Translations under genes and position numbers: made by a program
Notes under the pieces: generated by a model
What the model was told of the DNA's origin: nothing
Databases searched by the model: none
Seen by the model: only the letters and a program-made list of their open reading frames with translations
Part shown: one piece after another, positions 687 to 42,112 of the stretch
Numbering within the stretch: the stretch's first letter is position 1
Layout: each line of letters opens with the position of its first letter
Assembly (NCBI GenBank): GCA_030267965.1
Contig: BRYA01000201.1
Location: 1-64,000 of the forward strand
Length of the DNA: 64,000 bases
Direction of reading: 5' to 3'
Source: Triparma columacea
Lineage: Eukaryota > Sar > Bolidophyceae > Parmales > Triparmaceae

Positions 687-3600
687 TCACTCCCTATCCT
701 CGTCGTCTATCTGAGCAACACTGCTTACTTTATATCTCCTATCTCCAACCTCTATGATATCTCCACCCTCAGCGCCTCCAACACTTGCCCTCTCAATACT
801 TGCTCCCAAAGCACCTGCTAGACCACCCTCAGCTTCAGCATCAACACTAGCTCTCCTAACACTCTCTTTTCTCCTAGCATCTCCTTCTTGTGGAATGAAC
901 TCAACTGGAACCTTTGCTTTCAATTGATCAGTAAACCATTCTGGTCGCTCCTCTTCCCATTGAGCCCAATTTAGCTCAACCCATTCCTTTAACTCTCCCT
1001 CAATTGAGACCCAATGATGCCTTGAGCTTCCAAAGACTAAAATTTTAATATCATCGTTTTCTCCTTCAAGGAAGTATGCCATAGTCTTGTCCTTGCCCCT
1101 CTGTGTACTCCAGAAGGTGTGCAAGTAGTTCCTCTCAATGTTAAAAAAGAAAACAGCAAGGCATATGGTAGTTATTGGAATGATATACTTCACTATAAAT
1201 GATGCAATATCAATTGGGTTGTCTTCTACATAAGGAGAAAAAAGATATATGTATATTGATACTGGTAGGCTCCCCATTGTCAATAGAAGGCCAAACAACC
1301 AGTAAGCTCCCCCAACTTCATTAGGATGTCTAAACTGCACTATTGAAGTGAAGTCTACAATGATCTTTACAATCACTCTGTCAACAATGCTACTCACAAT
1401 CTCTAAGTCACCCCCCGCTGGTATCCAGTACCAAAAGTCTCCCCTCAATATCTTAACCAAATTGTACAGGCCAAGGTCAGCTCCAATGTAGAGAAAAGCC
1501 CAACTACCTCCCATCAGCCCCAGAAGAATTATTGTCATGCACCTTATTAGAAGCATTCCTGCAGTGACCAGCAACATGGACAGAAATACTACTGTTCTCT
1601 TGCTTGCTTTTGCTGGTATGTACCCATAGAAGTCAGGTGCTTTTTCTCTCCTAGCAGGGTCTGTGTCCCAGTCATAACTAATTGTTGCTGAGGCAAAGCC
1701 TGTTGTAATTGCTGACACTGCAACTGAAAGCCATGCTGAAGTTGAGACATCTTTGACACTGGTTGCTATAGCCATAAGTTGGATGATCACTCCAGGGATT
1801 GCCTCAGCAAACATTTCGGCACATTTCATGAATGTCATCTCCGTCATTGGGTCAACTGCAGTCCCAATCTCAAACTTTGCCCCAGTTGCAACCCTGTAAG
1901 CATCAACTGCAGGCTTGTACCCAAGCAAGATTGGAATCCACTCCTGTACCACCCTCTTCATCCCCAACCTCCTGTTCTGTCCCCAAACAATGAGCATCTG
2001 AAACCCAATTGACACCACTAAACTTGCCAAAGAAGCTTTGAAGAACCCGTACTTCTTATCTTTCCTAAACATGTACGTAACATACACATCAGTAAGCAAA
2101 TCAGTCATGCTTGTGAAAGCTCCAACTGTCACCCTCATCTTGACACCCCAAGGGACTTCCTCCATCAGCTTGAAGCCAATCGTCTCGAGCAGAGGTCGGA
2201 ACCAGCCGTACTCTTCATCAAGCTCCTTCAGAGCAGGGAACTGGTGCATCCACTCATCGACAGCGGATTGCACCTGTGTAGTTGTTGCCAATGTTGATGC
2301 TAGGCTTTCGCCGATCTCCTTCCCGTCCTTCTTCTCCAGGTCCTTGGCTGCCCCCTCCACCTTCCTCATCTTGTGCAGCTTGTTCTCAATGACAACAGCC
2401 AACATTGCTTCAACAAATGCGTACTTCTCTGCAGCCTGCCTTAGAATATAGTTTGACCCTATAAATAACCTCACTGCTTCCTCTTTTTTCATTCCCTTTT
2501 TCCTGAAATTTATTGCAACTAACAGTTGCTCACCCAACAACTTTCCTATTTGTTTAGGATCTAGGCCTGCATAGTCATTTGTAGTATCATTCACAGCGTG
2601 TGAAGCAATCAGTGCGCCTCTGTTGTCCATGCCAACACTTGCTCTCCTAATGCTTGCTCTCAAAGAACCTGCTAGAACACTCTCAGCTTTAGCATCAATC
2701 CTTGATCGCCTCATACTCTCTCTCTTTCTTGCATCTCCATCTGCTGGAATGAACTCAACTGGCACCAAAGATTTCCTTGCATCATCAAACCAATCTGGCT
2801 GCTCCTCTTCCCATTTAGACCAGTTTAAACTAATCCACTTTCTTAGCTCGCTTTCTATTTTGACCCACTGATGCCTTGAAAGTGTAAAAACTACAAATTT
2901 TTCTGAATCACTTTCCCCTTCAAGGAAATATGCCATTGACATGTCCTTTGATCTTTGTGTACTCCAGAAGGTGTGCAAGTACTTCTTTTCAATATTCAAA
3001 AAGAAGACAGCAAAACACAGGGTAGATATCAGTATGGAATACTCTACGATAGTCGATGCTACATCAATTGCACTGTCATCAACATGAGGTGAGGCTAAAT
3101 ATATTGACACTGGTAAGCTTCCCATTGTCAACACTAGACCAACTAACCAGTACAATCCCCCAACTTCATTAGGATGTCTAAAGTGCACCATTGATGTGAA
3201 GTCTACAATGATCTTTACCACCACTCTCATTACAATACTACTCACAACCTCTAAGTTACCCCCCGTTGGTATCCAGTACCAGAAGTCACCCCTCAATATC
3301 TTAACCAATAAGTACAGGCCAAGGTCAGCGCCAATGTAGAGAAAGGCCCAACTACCTCCCATCAACCCAAGAAGAACTATTGTTGAACATCTTATTAAAA
3401 GCATTCCTGCTGTGAACAGCAACATGGACACAAATACTAGTGTTCTCTTGCTTGCTTTAGCAGGTATATATCCATAGAAGGCTGGTGTTTCTTCTCTCTT
3501 ATCAGGGTCTGTGTCAAAATCATAACTAATTGTTGCTGATGCAAAGCCTGTTGTGATTGCTGACACTGCAACGGAAAGCCATGCTGACGTTCCAACCTCT

Positions 3601-6600
3601 TTGTCGCTGGTTGCTATTGCCATAAGTTGGATGATCACTCCAGGGATCGCCTCTGCGAACATCTCAGCGCATTTCATGCATGTCATTTCTGTCATTGGCG
3701 GAAGTGCAGCGCCAGCCTCTTGCTTTACTCCAGTTGCAACCCTATAGGCATCTACTGCAGGCTTGTACCCAAGCAAAATTGGAACCCATTCCCTAAGCAC
3801 CCTCTTCATCCCAAGTCTCCTATTTTGAAACCAAACACCAAGCATCTGAAACCCAATAGACACTGCCAAACTTGCCAAAGAAGCCTTAAAGTACCCATAC
3901 TTCTTATCTCTCCAAAACTTATGTGTCACATACACATCAGTCAGCAAATCAACCATGCTTGTGGCAGCACCAACAGTCACCCTTGCTTTTAAGCCTAAGG
4001 TAGACTTCATAAAAAGTTTCATAACTATCTCCTCAAGCATGGGCCGTAACCACACTTGTCCATTAATTACTTCTTGCACTTCAGTGAATTGATGCGCCCA
4101 TTCGTCAACAGCATGAGCAGCAGTCAAAGTAGTCAACATGACTGCTGTCATTGCATTCCCAATCTCCCAACCCCTGGCTTCCTCCTCACTCTTAACTTCT
4201 CCCTCATTTGTTGCTCTCCTTTTAAATTTGTTCGTAACCACAGCATACAGCAGAGTTCTCATGAAACCATGCTGCTCTGTAGTCTCTTTCAGTGCCCTAT
4301 TGGCAGCAATAAAGTCCCTCACGACCTCAACCTTACTGTCCTCGACATTCCTTTTCTTCACTTTCTCCATAAGCTGCTCTCCAAACCTCCTCCCATCCTG
4401 TTCCCCTGCTTCATTGCTCTTGAGCAGATTATCGAAGTAGTAAGCAGCATCAGTTGCCATGCTCAGGTGCTTAATTACACTGTTTTTGCTGGCAGCTTTT
4501 CCTAAACCCTCCTGTCTAGTCATCAGTTCAACATCTGTCTTCATCTGACCAGCATCTGATATCCTTACAGCTTTGAGATGCCCTTCATGTTCGACAGTGA
4601 TGACAAGCATCTTATTGTTGACTCTGTGAAGCTTAAGCTGGGAGTCAACTCCACTTTTGAAGTCCCAGAAAAATGCTGCAACTTCCTTGTGGGATGCTCT
4701 CACAGTTATTGAAGTCTTCCCCCATCCCATTCCCTTCTCTACCTTTATCAATGTCTGTCCAGACAATGCACAACTGATCTCTTGAGCTCCCTCAATCTCG
4801 TCAAAGTGACTTTCAATCCCTTGTGCTCCCTCTATTGCAATATTCTCAAAATTTGCAATGATCTGCTGTCTGTTGAAGGCGTCATTCTCTTTGCTCTTGT
4901 CAAACTTCTTTCTCAAGTCTGAGACTTGTGCAAGAAACCTTGGTGCAAGCTTGTTCACGATGGAGGAGAAGAAAACACCACCAAGGTCTACCTTTGTTGT
5001 GAAAGTGACTGATGTTTGTGGCACACCTCCAATAGGGTCAAGTTGCTCAAACATCCATACTGTGTGAATCTTTACTAAAACATTCCTAGCCTTCACTGGA
5101 AAGTCTTCATAAATCTCCTCTGTGTCTGCAACATCAATAATAACTTTGCCATCATGTTGCTTGGACCAGGTAACTTTACTCCTTCCATCACGTGGAGCAA
5201 AACCAGGGAGACCAAGTTCCCTTGTACTTACATAGTAGAGGGTGTGGGCATTTACATTGACAACTTTCATAAAGGTGATTCCATTGTTCTGGGCTTTCCT
5301 GTTTTTCTCCCTGCTGTCTAAACCAACTATTTCATTTGCTGCACACTCCTCCACACTCGCATCAACCACAGTAGTGGCAAAACCAGTCCCACTGCTTGCC
5401 CCATCAACATGAACTAGCTTCATCTTGACCCGCTCATCAGGACTCTTCATATCATCAAAGTTCTTATCCACCTTGCACTTCTCATAGAACTCCTTTCCCT
5501 TCCTGATTGCACCCTTCTCCTCAGCAGTATAATCTTGGTGTTCATTCTTGATGATGTTGACAAGAGAGGCCAGTGCAGCTTCATCAACCTCTTCATCCTG
5601 CTTGAAGGAGTCCCTTAGTGTTGCTATTGCACTTAGTCCTCTTGGTATTGTTCTGTGGACAACTTTTACTGGAATGTGCCCCCCTGCATCCATAAATTGG
5701 GTATATGTGAGTTTACACTGGTGAACACCATCTTGGTCCTCAATGTTCTTTGCAGTTAAAATTCCACTAGATGTTGCCCGCACAAGCTTTCCAAGGTTTC
5801 CCCCATAGTCAACCTTCTCCTTAGCTGGGACAAATGCCACAGACATGATGTTGCCATCTAGGTGTCCCTTCTTCCATACAAATCTCAACACAAACTCTCT
5901 TTTGTGAAGAGGGAAGCGAAGTTTCTTGACTGTTGCAAACAGCTTCTCATTTACCCTTCCCTCACCCAACTTCCTGATCTCCAGCCTTGCAGGACTTCCT
6001 TCCTCTTGGCTCAGTGCCATTCTTTCTCTGCTGCAGTACTCAAAGAACCAAGCAGCTGCTTCCTCGGCTGAGCAGTCGGCAACACACTCGGCTCTTCCAA
6101 AAGCGAGTGTCTTTTCCCCTTTCTCCTGCTGCTTGTACTTGATCTCCATCTTCACTTTATCATAGGGTGACTTGAGATGTCCCCAACCTTCTTCATCCTC
6201 CTCGCCAAAGAGCTCCTCCAACTCCCCAAACACCTTCTTCTGGTCCTCCTCCAACTCAACACCCTCCCTCATCCTCTGTACCAAGGCCCCCCTGACCTCA
6301 GCATCAACTTCCTTCCCGTTCCTCCTGAACTTCCTCTGCAACCTGTTGGCCTCAACAAGCTGATTCTTTGCAAGGTAGTCAATTGCTTTGTCCATCACTG
6401 TCTTATGAATGCCACTAAATTTCAGATCAACTGTTTGAACGCGTGTCACTCTGCAGACATTTGGAGCAATCTCATTGAAGAAGTAGGCACCTGTAGTCTC
6501 CGCCAGCTCAAATCCCTTCTTACTGAGGTCCTTGAAACCTCCTCCTGGGTACTCTGTCAACGGCACAAACCCCAACAAGTATCCTGCCATGCCACTGCTC

Positions 6601-9235
6601 AACTTGATTTCCTTCCAAGTAAACCAGGCTTCGAACAGACGGTCTTTTGCTGGACTAGGCAGGTGAACTCCTACGTGACTATGGTGACTTCTAGTTCCAT
6701 CGACATCTTTTCTAATAACCCTAGGCAGATTGCCATTTTCCTTCTGATGGCCTCTTGCATAAGTGTAAGTGTCGCCTAAATTTAGCTCTGCCAATGCACC
6801 CTTTGTTGACTTGTCCACAGTGACCCCAAAGGCTGCCCACACATTGTCTTCCTCTCTCCACAGGAACTTGTCAATGCCCTCCTTCAGTGTTCCCTTGACT
6901 CTCTTTCCCTTCTTGTAGAGTTCCTTCTCCAGCCCTGCGACACTTTCCAGCATCCCGTCCTCTTCCTCAGTAAGAGTTGGCACATTGGGCATGACCTCCT
7001 CTACAAAGTGTCTTTTCCTCCTCTCATCAATGACTGCAGGCTGTCTGAACTGCTTCCTGACCTCCTCCATGATACCCTTTACTGCTGCATACGCAGCCTT
7101 GACGTCACCCTTCTTGGTCCTGCCTGGGCTGCCTTCAACGCTAGATCTCGTGGATCTCACACTCTTAAAGCTTTTGAATGTGCGGACATCAACTTCTGGT
7201 GTTATCTCTGTTGCTCTCTTCTCTGCCTTGAGAGTTCCCACCATGGTGACTGCAGTTTGTCCAAACTCAAAGTCAGTGAAGCTGAGCTCGCCCTTAATGA
7301 CACCTCGTTTGACAGTCTTGGTCTTTGTTAACGCTAGAATTTTGACAAGCATCGCAGTTGCCTCATCAGAAAGGTCGTCCTCATCAAGGGGTGCCAACTC
7401 CATAATGTTCGTCGATTTGTCAGGAGATACGACTTTGACGTCGAGGAGAAATTCGACAAACTTATTCCCGCTGCCGTAGTGCTGCCAGTAGACAAGTCGG
7501 TGAATGACTCCTTCCTTTTCGTCATACTCCTGGAGGGTCTTCCTTCGGAACTTGCCCTGCTCACAATCGGTGAGGAGAAAGTCAATGATCTTGTCGCGCT
7601 CGTCGTGGAAGACACCAGCGAGCTCCATAACCTTCACATCGACGCTGGTAGAGTTACCTATGAGGCTTTCAATGGCTCCTCGGCGCATAACCTTCCTATC
7701 GACACCGGTAGAGTTGTCTATGAGGCCTTCAATGGCTCCTTGGTCATCCAGAAGCTTGACAAGTTTACCTTGTTCCAGACCAAGAGCTGCATAATCGATA
7801 TCTACGGGGCCGTGTATTGCGGAGGGTGTGTGATTGGGGCTGGAGTGGGGCTGCGGGGGGTCTTTATTCCTGACGGTGTTGTCAGGATCCAATGTCATGG
7901 CCTGAGCGTCAGTGGCATGGCTGACAGTGGCAAGGCCGACAGGCGTACGGCCGGGAGTCGCGCACCCGACAGCAGGCTGTATAGCGCTTAGATTGCTCTC
8001 GCCCGCTATTCCACCGTTTAAGGGATCATCGGAAATTTCAGCGTTGAACTTTTCGAATCCAGGCTGAAGATGAGGATGGCCAGAAATTTCTGGGGGGTGG
8101 TTTAGGGGGATTTTTGGTGAAAAGGGGTCAAAAAAAGGCAAGCATCTGAAACTCCCTTAGAACGGCTTCCCAGCCCTCCCCTGAACAATCAAAATACTCT
8201 ACTTTTTGTCTACACGACTACGCAAACTCACCTCGTCTAGCATCCTCGTGAGAGCTTCTAGAGACTGCGAAGGGGACAATATTGTTGCAAAAGTGAGAAA
8301 AAATTACAAAGTTTCAACACGCCCTCCCACGACTCTTCCGCTCTCCCCTAGAGTATTAAATTGTCCTTTCTCTCTTCCAGCTCTCAACGCACAACTCACC
8401 TCCTCCGGCGTCCTCGTGGCGGATTTTGGAGTCTGCGGTAATGGCGATTATGGTGTTTGTTATGTTAGTCAACATGAAGATATTTCAACGCGTGCTCCTC
8501 ATTTCTGTGTAGCATATCAAGCGCTCCACGCAGTCGCCGGTGATGGAGCCCATGCGGTCGCCGCAGAAGCGCCCCATGCGGTCGCCAGAGACGGAACCCA
8601 TGTGGTCGCCGCAGAAACGCCCCATGTGGTCGCCGCAGACGGAACCCACGCAGTCGCCAGAGACAGATCCCATGAGGTCGCCGCAGACCGGCGCTCGCGC
8701 GCATGCGCTACGGCCGCCGCCCGTCGAGCTCAACGCCGAGGGCCAGGCCCTCCGCGAACGGCACCACGCGTTCCGCACGCAGGCGGTGAGGAAAAACTAC
8801 AAAATTTTAACGCGCCCTCCCGCGACTCTCCTACTCTCTCCTAGAGTACCCAATTGTCCTTTCTCTCTTCTATCTCTCAACGCACAACTCACCTCGTCCA
8901 GCGTCCTCGTGACCATTTTCAGAGTCTACGGTAATAGGGATTATGGTGTTGGTTAGTCAAAATGAAAAGGTTTCCACGCGTGCCCCTACATATCGTCCCC
9001 ATTTCCCTTTAGAATATCACACGTCTCCACCCCTACAACCCCCTGACACGACTCTCTCACCTTGTCCAGCATCCCCACGAATTCTTTCAATTGACGAAGA
9101 CGGAGTAACTTGCCTCTCATGGCCTAGATCGGGTACTGAATGGCAGTTATCGGGCATCGGGGCGTCAACCTGAAGTATATGAGTCTCCTCCACACGGTCT
9201 TCTCTCCCTCCTCGTGAATCGTTTTCCGTGTCCAT
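687..9235 (-). CDS. giant START-like, duplicated multipass membrane protein
   Basis: Proposed CDS complement(join(687..8089, 8232..8264, 8400..8432, 8893..8925, 9061..9235)), about 2558 aa. The large exon has no ATG at its 5' end (the open frame starts at a TTG at 8141). It has a CAG acceptor at 8090-8091, and three 33-nt mini-exons plus a first exon with ATG at 9235 join to it in constant phase. The amino-terminal half carries at least two START/Bet v1-like lipid-binding domains (about 6150-5610 and 5430-4900) with related but less clear segments at 6690-6380 and 4760-4540. The carboxy half is two copies of a roughly 617-residue module (about 4440-2600 and 2600-700) with six or more hydrophobic segments and a motif resembling the XK-related scramblase family (EAIPGVIIQL). 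No function is proven; lipid binding or movement at a membrane is inferred. The large exon is certain; the 5' exons are a model and may extend past 9235. Confidence 0.75.
8289..8990. repeat. two ~200-bp direct repeats (exon plus intron units)
   Basis: The segments 8289-8497 and 8782-8990 align base for base at an offset of 493 bp. Each contains, on the minus strand, a 33-nt exon-like block with an AG acceptor before it and GTGAGTTG after it, followed by a related intron of A/G-rich sequence. Weaker partial copies lie at 8220-8270 and 9050-9095. This looks like tandem duplication of an exon-intron unit in the 5' region of the START-like gene. Confidence 0.75.
8526..8693. repeat. 24-bp GC-rich tandem repeat, 7 copies
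   Basis: Seven consecutive 24-bp units share the core CCAYGNGGTCGCC. Because 24 is a multiple of three the array is open on both strands: on plus it reads as repeats of PMRSPQ type, on minus as repeats of GSVCGD type. It sits in the intron between the second and third 33-nt mini-exons of the START-like gene, within a stretch (8520-8790) that is visibly more GC-rich than its surroundings. No transcript model supports it as coding. Confidence 0.8.
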
Positions 9236-17293: not shown

Positions 17294-17301
17294 AAAAAAA
17301 A
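17294..17301 (-). terminator. RNA polymerase III T8 terminator
   Basis: Eight T residues on the minus strand begin two bases after the last anticodon-loop base of the 5' tRNA half. This is where termination would be expected if the rearranged tRNA gene is transcribed as one unit from the 17448 side. Confidence 0.75.
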
Positions 17302-17302
17302 G

Positions 17303-17448
17303 TTTCGAGTCAATCGCCTTAACCACTCGGCCACGTACGCTAAGAGCGCGAACGACAGGATTCTGAAGCGATGGGTGAGGACGTGTGTACGCGAGACGAG
17401 TAAGTTCGCGAAATAACTTACCGAACCTGCGAGGCTGACGCCAATTGA
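17303..17448 (-). tRNA. permuted tRNA-Ser(CGA) with T-loop interruption
   Basis: Read on the minus strand, the parts come in this order: 3' segment B 17448-17422 (anticodon 3' stem TCAAT, variable arm GGC-GTCA-GCC, T stem to TTCG); a 59-nt insert 17421-17363; segment C 17362-17347 (AAT, CCTGT, acceptor 3' strand CGTTCGC, discriminator G); 6 nt CTCTTA; then 5' segment A 17340-17303 (acceptor GCGTACG, D arm, ATTGA, loop CTCGAAA). Joined as A-B-C they give an 81-nt class II tRNA. The anticodon stem pairs 5/5, the T stem 5/5 (one G-U), the acceptor 6/7 with one T-T mismatch, and the T loop TTCGAAT is canonical. The anticodon CGA is at 17307-17305 and would read UCG. CCA is not encoded. The insert can start one base earlier without changing the product. 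Function is unproven; a decayed copy is the main alternative. Confidence 0.75.
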
Positions 17449-17701
17449 TATCAAACATTGGAAATTAGCATGAGAAATCGATTTTTTGCTATAGTTAAAA
17501 CGAAAGCTTGCCTGGCACAAAACCGAGGGCACTGTGAAGAAAAACAAAATTGATTGATTTGCACTTCTCCCTTCTTGGACGTATTTCGTCAAATTTGCTC
17601 CTTGTCCTTCCATTAGACTACCATTTACGCCTCAGAGTCTCGAAGAAGCTCCTACAACTCGCATAAGTCCAAAATCCCACCCTCATCTTCAGCTCCCCGA
17701 C

Positions 17702-35918: not shown

Positions 35919-36816
35919 TTAAAGGTGATTTATGAAGTGCTTGATGGCACAGTCAATAGCTCTCTTCTGGTCCTCGCTGGGTTTTCCGCGCGACACCCAT
36001 CCGTGGATTTGGTTTGAAAACTCAACGCTAATCTCAGATTCGTCAACGCCCCTTGCCTCCGCGAGAATCTTGACGACGGCACCTCCTGGCCTTACATCGA
36101 TCTTGTCGTTCCCTGCGGGAATGAGCAGGAGAGGCTTCCTGCCTACACGCCTGGCAAGGTCTGCAACAGGACGTCGGTGCAAGTCCTCGACGTTCAAAGA
36201 GGGGTGGATCCCCACTCCAGCACTAAACGGGGAATTCTCCAGGGCAAGACACTGAGAAACAGCCCAGCCGCCGAAGCAGAAACCCACACAGCCAAACGAC
36301 TCGTATCCCAGCGAGCGCAAGTGGGGGACGACGAGCCTCTGACAATCTACATTGATGGTCGTATCGACAGTGTAAGTAAACTTTAGCCTGTACAGCATCC
36401 CAAAAGCAGCCAGGGGCAATGCGACAGCCTCGGGCAACCACGAGATGGGTTGAATCGCATTATTGCCACGAAAAAAGTCGGGAAGGAACACGTCGACATC
36501 TGGGAGGGGAGGGGAGGGGGGAGGGGGTTGGGGGAGGTCGGAGGCATGCTTGAACAACACGTCTTGTCTCACCTTCTCCAACACCCTGCGAAAGAGCATC
36601 ACAAAATAAACGATGGTTGCCAGCTTCAAATCCAAAAACGTCAGAAAATACCACTATTGCCTTCTTCGGCTTCTCCTTCTTCGATGAGGGACTTTGGTAC
36701 ATTGACATGGAGGGGACATCCCCAGAAGAAGGGATGGTTGATAGAGAACCATTCGGTTTATCATCGGCTTGGAAGGGGAGCCCGACGGAGTCCGGGGGGC
36801 AGCACGGGGCACTCAT
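35919..36816 (-). CDS. dienelactone hydrolase-family protein
   Basis: Model complement(join(35919..36499, 36573..36816)), 274 aa, with the split codon giving Asp. The start MSAPCCPPDSVG matches the cysteine-rich beginning of eukaryotic DLH-like proteins. Then come KAIVVFSDVFGFEAGN, VFLPDFFRGN, the nucleophile elbow GFCFGG (Cys about 156), AGNDKIDVRPGG with the acid, and QIHGWVSRG with the histidine. So the Cys-Asp-His triad is intact in an alpha/beta hydrolase fold. The substrate in eukaryotes of this group is not established. Intron 36500-36572 is short and C-rich before the acceptor. It converges with the EF-hand phosphoesterase gene, with 42 bp between stops. Confidence 0.88.
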
Positions 36817-40026: not shown

Positions 40027-40159
40027 AAGGACGAGTAGTAAAGTCAATGTAAAAGCGAAGAGTATATAAAAGAATGTCTTGATTTCCGCCTTGAGGGACA
40101 AATTGATAGATTAAATTTTGTTCCCCCAAAGAATTCCAGTGGAGAAGGAGGAAAACAAG

Positions 40160-42112
40160 ATGCTTCAGAACGTCTCGAAACTTCGAGGAACACAACTCCT
40201 CATTCGTTTCGTCCAACAATCTCACCTCTCAAGCCCTCCTAGTCTCTTTCACACATTAATTTCCCATCATAAACCGGTGCGCCGACTAGGACGAAGATCC
40301 TCTTGCAAACGCCTTTCCACCTCTTCCAAACCACCTCCTCGACAAACACTGGGGAGTGTGCGCCGACTAGGACGAAGAACCCCCTGCAAACGCCTTTCAA
40401 CCACTTCCAAACCACCTCCTCGACAAACACTGGCTCGTTCAGCCGGTGCTATTGCCCTTCTGTCCTTTGCTGCTTACTCAATCTTCCCCTACTTTGATAA
40501 CTCCTTCACGAGATCAACCACCCTCTTCATATCCCTCTCTCCCATGTACGCTGAGTGGAAGTGGCTGGAGTGGCGTATATCTCACTTACCCCCTGATCTG
40601 AAGCGTACCCACTACGACCAATTTCATCAGCGATGGAGGGACGAACCACTTCGTGTCATCTTGGCCCTTCGAGGATTTTACGTGAAGGCCGGACAAATCA
40701 TCTCAAATAACCCCGCTCTGGTCCCAGAGGCGTATGCGAAGTCCCTAAAGATTCTTCAAGAGGATGTTCCCGCCAAGCCCTTCGCCGTGATCAAGAAGAT
40801 TGTCGAGGAGGACATGGGGAAAAAAATGGAGGATGTGTTTTCGAGCTTCGACGAGGTCCCGATCGGTTCCGCGTCCATCGGACAAGTCCACTTTGCGAAG
40901 CTAAAGGCCGGGGATAAAAAGGTTGTAGTAAAAGTTCAATACCCCGAAGCTGAGCGCTACTTTGCCTTGGACTTCTGGACGGCACTGAAGATTTTGGAAT
41001 TCGTCAACCCTGGCCTAATAGAGGTTATGAAGAAGAACCAAGAGACTTTCATGTCTGAATTCGATTACAAGAGGGAGGCAAAGAACCTCGAGCTCATGAA
41101 TAGTCACGTCTCTCCACACTTTCCATCCGTGCAGTTCCCTAAACCCTTGAATGAGCACCTCGGAAAGCGGGTGCTAGTAATGACGGCGATGGAGGGAGAG
41201 ACGATTACAAAATATGGAAAAAAGCTGCTGGCCGAGATTGCAAAGACGAGGGGCAAGACACCGGAGGAGTTCAAGACGGAGCTGCGCAATGCCATGAGAG
41301 ATCCCAAAAAACTCGAAACACTCTCCAAAGTTGTGCCCTCCCTGAACGAGACCTTCTTCGACGTCCTCCGCAGTGCACTGCATCTGAAAAACGTCATTCT
41401 CTTTTGGCTGCCCGCGACTTACATCCCGCCCAACGGCCCTCGCCTGATGCAAATTCTCTTCGACGTTCACGGCAGGGAGATCTTCAACCTTGGCGCCTTC
41501 AACAGCGACCCGCACGCAGGTAATATTATGCTGGACGAGAAGACCGGGATTGTCTCCCTCCTGGACTACGGTCAGCTCGTGACAGTAGAGGACGAGGTTT
41601 GGCGGGAGAACTTTGCGAGGTATATTGTTGCTCTCGCTGACGAGGACAAGGAGGAGGTGGTTCGGCGTTGGAAGGATCTTGGCAACGAGTTCGTTTGGAA
41701 GCCGACTGGGGAAATAAACCCACCAGACATTACGTACGCGTGCGCTTGTTTTCACTTCGGCGGCCCCCCCGGCATCAAGAAGGCCCTCTCCATGCTTGGG
41801 ATTAGGATGTCAAAACTCCACAGCGACGTTTTCACAAAGATTGACATCACCAAGAGCACAAGTCAGTATGCAATGCTCCAAAGGACTTGCTTCTGTTTGA
41901 TTGGTGTGGCGCAGCAGGTTGGCGCCGGGGCTGGCGTTATTCCCAGCCAGATGCTGAGGAGCTCAGCCGTTCAATACATCGAAGAATGCGAGGCAAAGAG
42001 AAAGGACGCAAAAGAGTACAGTGAAAAAGGAGATATTTACGTCGCTGAGAAAACCAGCCTTCTCCCCAAGCTTGCTCTCCTCGCTTTCTTCGTCGTAGCA
42101 AGAATATTATAG
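40160..42112 (+). CDS. ABC1/ADCK (UbiB) family atypical kinase
   Basis: Single exon, 650 aa, ATG at 40160 (the open frame begins at a TTG at 40118). The family marks are all present: KAGQ (about 177), GSASIGQV nucleotide loop (about 236), SEFDYKREAKN (about 300), SDPHAGN (about 450) and DYG (about 469) replacing DFG. These proteins support coenzyme Q or plastid prenyl-lipid metabolism at mitochondrial or plastid membranes. The N-terminus is Arg/Ser-rich and free of acids, as in an organelle presequence. It contains a 27-residue tandem duplication starting VRRLGRR (81-bp DNA repeat, 40277 and 40358). The end KLALLAFFVVARIL is a possible membrane tail. Confidence 0.92.
   Translation: MLQNVSKLRGTQLLIRFVQQSHLSSPPSLFHTLISHHKPVRRLGRRSSCKRLSTSSKPPPRQTLGSVRRLGRRTPCKRLSTTSKPPPRQTLARSAGAIALLSFAAYSIFPYFDNSFTRSTTLFISLSPMYAEWKWLEWRISHLPPDLKRTHYDQFHQRWRDEPLRVILALRGFYVKAGQIISNNPALVPEAYAKSLKILQEDVPAKPFAVIKKIVEEDMGKKMEDVFSSFDEVPIGSASIGQVHFAKLKAGDKKVVVKVQYPEAERYFALDFWTALKILEFVNPGLIEVMKKNQETFMSEFDYKREAKNLELMNSHVSPHFPSVQFPKPLNEHLGKRVLVMTAMEGETITKYGKKLLAEIAKTRGKTPEEFKTELRNAMRDPKKLETLSKVVPSLNETFFDVLRSALHLKNVILFWLPATYIPPNGPRLMQILFDVHGREIFNLGAFNSDPHAGNIMLDEKTGIVSLLDYGQLVTVEDEVWRENFARYIVALADEDKEEVVRRWKDLGNEFVWKPTGEINPPDITYACACFHFGGPPGIKKALSMLGIRMSKLHSDVFTKIDITKSTSQYAMLQRTCFCLIGVAQQVGAGAGVIPSQMLRSSAVQYIEECEAKRKDAKEYSEKGDIYVAEKTSLLPKLALLAFFVVARIL

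Follow-up and report, generated by a model that had tools for sequence, protein, structure and literature searches.

Permuted tRNA genes have been described in Cyanidioschyzon merolae, prasinophytes, chlorarachniophyte nucleomorphs and Thermofilum, 34 of them being counted in a 2014 review (PMC3978253), and they are also known from Auxenochlorella (PMC12633428). In C. merolae, the mature ends of permuted tRNAs are released by RNase P and tRNase Z (PMC3978253).

The locus described here stands closest to the type II genes of prasinophytes and nucleomorphs (Maruyama 2010, via PMC3978253 and PMC4494063), with which it shares the 3' half in first position, the 37/38 split, the Ser(CGA) identity and the layout of a single transcript. 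Its 6-nt spacer compares with 5-28 bp in those genes (PMC3978253, PMC4494063). The prasinophyte and nucleomorph Ser(CGA) genes listed in these sources are intronless, whereas the present one belongs to a stramenopile nucleus and carries a GT-AG intron in its T loop. In other respects it resembles C. merolae, where permutation is combined with a T-loop intron in tRNA-Gly(CCC), many tRNA genes are disrupted and a TATA-like promoter lies upstream (PMC3978253). The C. merolae introns, however, are of the bulge-helix-bulge (BHB) type cut by the splicing endonuclease and measure 11-69 bp (PMC3978253), whereas those found here have GT-AG ends and branch-site-like motifs, are 57-80 nt long and show no sign of a BHB. 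An mRNA-type intron in a Pol III gene, as we propose here, is known from the fission yeast U6 gene (PMC10484740), which is a single snRNA gene, in contrast to the many tRNA genes of the present case.

A 2026 review restates the textbook rule that tRNA introns do not depend on the spliceosome and are not marked out by GT-AG ends (PMC13149111); the wider GT-AG pattern in this genome contradicts it. Our searches of open-access papers yielded no earlier report of permuted tRNA genes in stramenopiles, nor of GT-AG or spliceosomal introns in tRNA genes.

Organisation of the permuted gene

We analysed a window of 64,000 nt (positions 1-64000 of contig C199) from an assembly of 37.85 Mb in 789 contigs. 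The host is a bolidophyte/Parmales stramenopile. Over residues 120-640, an ABC1 kinase encoded in the window (40118-42109) matches metagenome proteins at 99% and 90%; the nearest match with a name is from Bolidomonas, a transcript at 74%, followed by Triparma strigata at 46%. An E1-like protein, 33% identical at best to its matches, gave no indication of the host.

All parts of the gene lie on the minus strand. In that orientation the 3' half begins with piece B (17422-17449; tRNA bases 38-57), which holds the 3' side of the anticodon stem, the variable arm, the 5' side of the T stem and TTCG. An insert of 59 nt at position 57/58 follows (17363-17421; GTAAGT...CTCAC...CTTCAG), delimited by an unconstrained deletion scan, and then piece C (17347-17362; bases 58-73) with the remainder of the T loop, the 3' side of the T stem, the 3' strand of the acceptor stem and G73. 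The spacer CTCTTA (17341-17346) separates the mature 3' end from the mature 5' end of piece A, the 5' half with the anticodon CGA (17304-17340; bases 1-37). After an A and a C comes a run of eight T, a Pol III terminator (17294-17301). A promoter-like element, ACTATAGCAAAAAATCGATTTCT, was found by a pattern search of the genome at 17473-17495, ahead of the 3' half. The three pieces were delimited by reading together with ARAGORN, the spacer and terminator by reading.

Joined as A, B and C with the insert removed, the pieces form an ordinary cloverleaf, an 81-nt class II tRNA that ARAGORN identifies as tRNA-Ser(cga). Its acceptor stem pairs at six of seven positions (U4.U69 is mismatched), its anticodon stem at all five and its T stem at all five with one G.U pair; the variable arm has 3 bp and the discriminator position is G73. 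The order of the halves, their 6-nt separation and the T run after the 5' half agree with the initial annotation, as do the stems of the class II tRNA that it rebuilt, but it made no mention of the 59-nt insert. It had also placed the locus at 17303-17448. An A stands on both sides of the junction, which can thus be read as 37/38 or 38/39, and this explains the shift of one base.

We take this locus, with a probability of about 0.7, for a functional type II (37/38) permuted nuclear tRNA-Ser(CGA) gene, whose T-loop intron would be removed by the spliceosome and whose ends would be processed by the tRNA splicing endonuclease and probably RtcB. The permuted gene proposed in the initial annotation is upheld by the structure, by tests against chance, by a promoter-like element in common with other tRNA genes, by the terminator and by the failure of our searches to find a conventional copy.

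Reconstruction against chance

The initial annotation had suggested a permutation-aware search, for which we ran every sub-segment through the circular mode of ARAGORN, with one intron optionally removed. It recovered the locus as tRNA-Ser(cga), split 37/45, with a score of 116.8, inside the range of 27 ordinary tRNA loci of the same genome (107.1-122.6, one locus being rescored, L100). None of 60 random window segments gave a wrapped tRNA, and among 982 tiles covering both strands of the window the locus alone did so. When the upstream part, the 3' half, was shuffled, no wrapped tRNA was obtained in 400 trials; shuffling the 5' half gave 29 in 400, the best at 109.0, so that none of the 800 half-shuffled versions scored as high as 116.8. 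On the segment, tile and shuffle tests we reject a chance origin, in agreement with the earlier remark that separate pieces would hardly complement each other by accident.

The circular mode also generates false wraps. In 130 tiles around 28 tRNA loci, 35 of 37 wrapped tiles were false wraps around ordinary tRNA genes, which mostly borrow a few acceptor-stem bases; the best with a deep split reached 111.2 (at L081), so a score near 111 would be unconvincing alone. Conventional calling returned nothing at the permuted locus, whether by ARAGORN, by Rfam at the gathering threshold or by Rfam at E<=5.

We further scored 4650 internal deletions of the locus with no GT-AG requirement. A wrapped tRNA resulted from 97 of them, and the best two, which yield the same product, remove the GT...AG insert or the same stretch shifted by one base. 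The folding energy of the putative circle was equalled or undercut by 156 of 300 shuffles, and neither the spliced RNA nor the circle has the cloverleaf as its minimum-energy fold. The energy thus lends no support, though for a tRNA this says little.

Promoter-like element and transcription unit

The exact pattern TAGCAAAAAATCG occurs six times in the genome, one of them at this locus, against one match of the reversed-pattern control. A longer upstream pattern with up to three mismatches gave 28 matches against three for controls; 19 lie at tRNA genes (the permuted one included), one at a U3-like gene, two are mirror matches and six have no recognised tRNA. At the 27 ordinary loci the element stands 32-83 nt ahead of base 1, with at most three substitutions in 18 and four or five in the other nine, a level (<=5 substitutions) attained by 8 of 8000 random window stretches. 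At the permuted locus it precedes, by 46 nt from start to start, the first encoded tRNA base, which is base 38. T-runs also follow the ordinary tRNA genes once these are reconstructed. A generic B-box search of the genome carried no signal (245 matches against 464 for reversed-pattern controls).

The 6-nt spacer lies within the range of 1-74 bp given for permuted genes (PMC3978253) and contains neither a T-run nor a promoter-like element. With the element before piece B and the T-run after the 5' half, a single transcript with the 3' half in front is the natural reading. Each half is intact, and split tRNA genes joined in trans do exist in Nanoarchaeum (PMC3978253), so that two half genes instead of one permuted transcript may be imagined here. 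With halves 6 nt apart, a single promoter-like element, ahead of B, and a single T-run, behind A, we hold such an arrangement to be extremely improbable. The locus gives a concrete form to the question of how permuted genes come about and how they can be transcribed when their A and B boxes are out of order.

Some observations concern the promoters of other genes. In 18 tRNA genes (L070-L087) a conserved element of about 60 bp lies some 50 nt past the T-run; its pattern TGGCAAAGTTTGAGAGTGATTGGAG, with up to three mismatches, has 18 genome matches and none in controls. It includes AGTTTGA, which we take to resemble the B box (GGTTCGA), and the element might be an external B box. At the permuted locus it is at most weak. 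A U3-like snoRNA gene on another contig (L089, C124; RF01847, 29.4 bits, below the gathering score) has the same upstream element together with a similar downstream hairpin region, which hints at a common type of Pol III promoter. In the 110 nt on each side of four identical copies of tRNA-Arg(CCG) (L005, L006, L007 and L008, on C54, C501 and C670), neither the upstream element nor a clear T-run is seen; they are perhaps tRNA-derived repeats or use a different promoter type. Among the B-box matches listed, two neighbouring ones fall in sequence resembling tRNA-Pro(CGG) (L059 and L060, C54:36443-36453 and 36762-36772), where reading revealed no upstream element.

T-loop insert and GT-AG introns in other tRNA genes

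The insert has the features of a U2-type intron. It starts with GTAAGT, in the manner of GTRAGT, ends in CAG and has a branch-site-like CTCAC whose A is 13 nt from the 3' end; by reading, a 7-bp hairpin (GTAAGTT/AACTTAC) can also be seen in it.

Comparable sequences interrupt other tRNA genes of the genome. The 27 ordinary loci had been found through the upstream element, the downstream element or Rfam, and from each we took out candidate introns (GT[AG]..., YTNAY, [CTA]AG, 35-125 nt), trying every combination of up to three or four, before scoring what was left. A tRNA was obtained from all 27, and 17 required the removal of GT-AG introns, 32 in total and 57-80 nt long; two of the 17 are near-identical neighbours on C762. 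The products of the intron-bearing loci scored 107.5-122.6. An extreme case is a tRNA-Pro(TGG) (L100/L119, C368), with five introns of 61-73 nt, whose removal leaves a perfect 72-nt tRNA with a score of 122.5; an earlier interpretation of L100 as an Arg gene with four introns was replaced by this one. Further examples are L094 (C151), L096 (C117), L092 (C663), L083 (C271) and L095 (C275). As a control, 400 random window segments gave 6406 spliced variants and no tRNA. In eight of the 17 intron-bearing loci an intron lies in the T loop or at its edge.

The 32 introns have G at +5 in every case, A at +4 in 31, T at +6 in 26 and T or C at -3 in 30. In the zone 8-34 nt before the 3' end, 22 of them have CTTAC, against 7% of shuffled introns, and 30 have CT[ACT]A[CT], against 34%. 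The intron search itself demanded GT, AG and YTNAY, hence counts of these three are partly circular. When six single-intron loci were scanned without these constraints, the best deletion was the GT-AG one, or one at most one base off, in four, and a different one in two (L068 and L082).

An alternative is that the splicing endonuclease cuts the T-loop insert along with its GT-AG counterparts in other genes, the GT-AG ends being incidental or secondary. In its favour is the type II permuted tRNA-Gly(CCC) of C. merolae, whose T-loop intron at 55/56 is cut by that enzyme (PMC3978253). The endonuclease gene is present in this genome too, and the insert shifted by one base would allow a central helix of four pairs with two wobbles and one of three outer pairs, though the T stem would then break. 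At its GT-AG boundary, however, the insert forms only two of the four central pairs, short of a BHB intron; a four-pair central helix occurs at this boundary in one of the 32 introns, against a mean of 1.35 when re-dealt, and a strict BHB in none. Neither the +3 to +6 consensus nor the position of the branch site is explained by BHB recognition, and we find endonuclease cutting of these inserts rather unlikely. By its sequence features the T-loop insert so appears to be one member of a class of spliceosomal-type introns found in tRNA genes across the genome. We know of no other permuted tRNA gene with an intron of this type.

The two protein-gene introns that we read, in genes for RtcB and an E1-like protein, are GT-AG with CTAAC or CTAAT and start with GTGAGG and GTGAGA. 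The combination GTRAGT..CTTACC..YAG is absent from the 64 kb of the window, against 0-1 in shuffles. Since these two protein introns start otherwise and the style does not occur in the window, the CTTACC style of the tRNA introns finds no match among the protein introns covered.

There is a possibility of something larger in tRNA introns than one permuted gene. A broader reading, which we favour with some reserve, is that the nuclear tRNA genes of this stramenopile lineage were colonised by spliceosomal introns, up to five in one 72-nt tRNA, that Pol III precursors would routinely be spliced by the spliceosome, that the permuted Ser(CGA) gene would need both the spliceosome and the endonuclease with RtcB, and that external promoters would have freed the genes from the order of A and B boxes.

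In four genes ARAGORN also places short introns without GT-AG in the anticodon loop (26 nt in L076, 10 in L079, 12 in L098 and 37 in L085), from which it follows that endonuclease-type introns coexist with GT-AG ones. Two of these four genes carry GT-AG introns as well.

Junction and proposed maturation pathway

At the permuted junction a C32:G(-3) pair is available by reading. A helix AAAC/GTTT between 3' trailer and 5' leader, put forward in the initial annotation as a substrate for the endonuclease, is possible, but in its predicted fold the unspliced RNA favours UUUGA:UCGAA next to the anticodon stem. A strict bulge-helix-bulge was found at the junction neither in the predicted fold nor by reading, and the fold suggests a relaxed motif instead.

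The genome contains a splicing endonuclease gene (PF01974, 50.6 bits) and an RtcB gene in two exons (PF01139, 323.8 and 215.4 bits). An endonuclease-like open reading frame lies at C29:13653-13877 (L115). By eye, it has a possible Y, H, K catalytic set.

From these elements we infer transcription, every processing step and function as follows. RNA polymerase III would start from the upstream element and produce one RNA with the 3' half, the 6-nt spacer and the 5' half, stopping in the T8 run. The spliceosome would take out the GT-AG intron of the T loop. The anticodon stem would bring the ends of the RNA together, the tRNA splicing endonuclease would trim them at 37/38 and RtcB would probably join them into a circle. 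From this circle CTCTTA would be excised by RNase P and tRNase Z, and CCA would be added. Two RNA-splicing machines may in this way be needed to make a single tRNA-Ser.

Search for a conventional copy and origin of the gene

The initial annotation had allowed for a normal tRNA-Ser(CGA) gene elsewhere, and pattern and whole-locus searches of this assembly, which may be incomplete, returned none. An 18-mer from the D arm with up to three mismatches has 26 genome matches against 11 in controls, and the only tRNAs among them are a tRNA-Ser(TGA) gene on C36, identical to piece A over this 18-nt D-arm stretch, and the present locus. GACTCGAAATC has 11 exact matches, none of them a tRNA by reading and ARAGORN, and AAGGCRNNNGACTCGAA occurs exactly here and at one non-tRNA place. 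With up to two mismatches AAGGCRNNNGACTCGAA gave 568 matches against 427 in controls, those looked at being the two exact ones, C36 and C228. The 175-nt locus matched only itself in the genome at E<=10, and viral contigs searched for a relative with the same gene gave 0 and 0 matches. A genome search with RF00005 returned at least 14 matches with 63 of 675 candidates scored, and the tRNA set is hence a lower bound.

Compared with tRNA-Ser(TGA), the rebuilt tRNA has the same length and layout, with 56 of 81 bases identical. The stem of the variable arm is compensated, GAC/GTC here corresponding to GGC/GCC there. Since tRNA-Ser(UGA) might read UCG, the cell need not depend on the permuted gene.

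One U.U mismatch in the acceptor stem and the weakness of the downstream element could be signs that the locus is a dead, shuffled copy, in which a rearrangement has left behind two fragments of tRNA-Ser. Both halves are nevertheless complete and complement each other in the acceptor and anticodon stems, the cuts are precise, the promoter-like element and the T8 run are in register, and our searches offered no other copy as an intact source. Decay of this kind is in our judgement quite improbable, and a functional permuted gene is the preferred reading.

As to its origin, spliceosomal back-splicing was rejected as the cause of the permutation, there being by reading no GT after piece A and no AG before piece B. 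tRNA-Ser(CGA) is recurrently permuted in prasinophytes and chlorarachniophyte nucleomorphs, type II examples being given for O. lucimarinus, O. tauri, M. pusilla, Micromonas RCC299 and the B. natans nucleomorph (PMC3978253), a recurrence that would suit transfer from a green alga rather than a rearrangement within Parmales. Such a transfer seems unlikely for a gene with the upstream element of its host genome and a T-loop GT-AG intron of the host's kind.

The host being a bolidophyte, the gene would extend permuted tRNA genes to stramenopiles, beside the diatoms, as the initial annotation foresaw for a host of this group. Parmales genomes of 31.0-43.6 Mb and RNA reads are published (PMC10328945), and as cultured relatives (Triparma) exist, the claim can be put to the test directly.

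The search with the D-arm pattern also brought up, by a chance match, a repeated protein-coding family (..KIGAEVKAWINE..) present on many contigs (L013-L034, for example on C15, C163 and C593). In the window itself, stretches of a 2484-aa open reading frame at 687-8141 resemble this family by eye.
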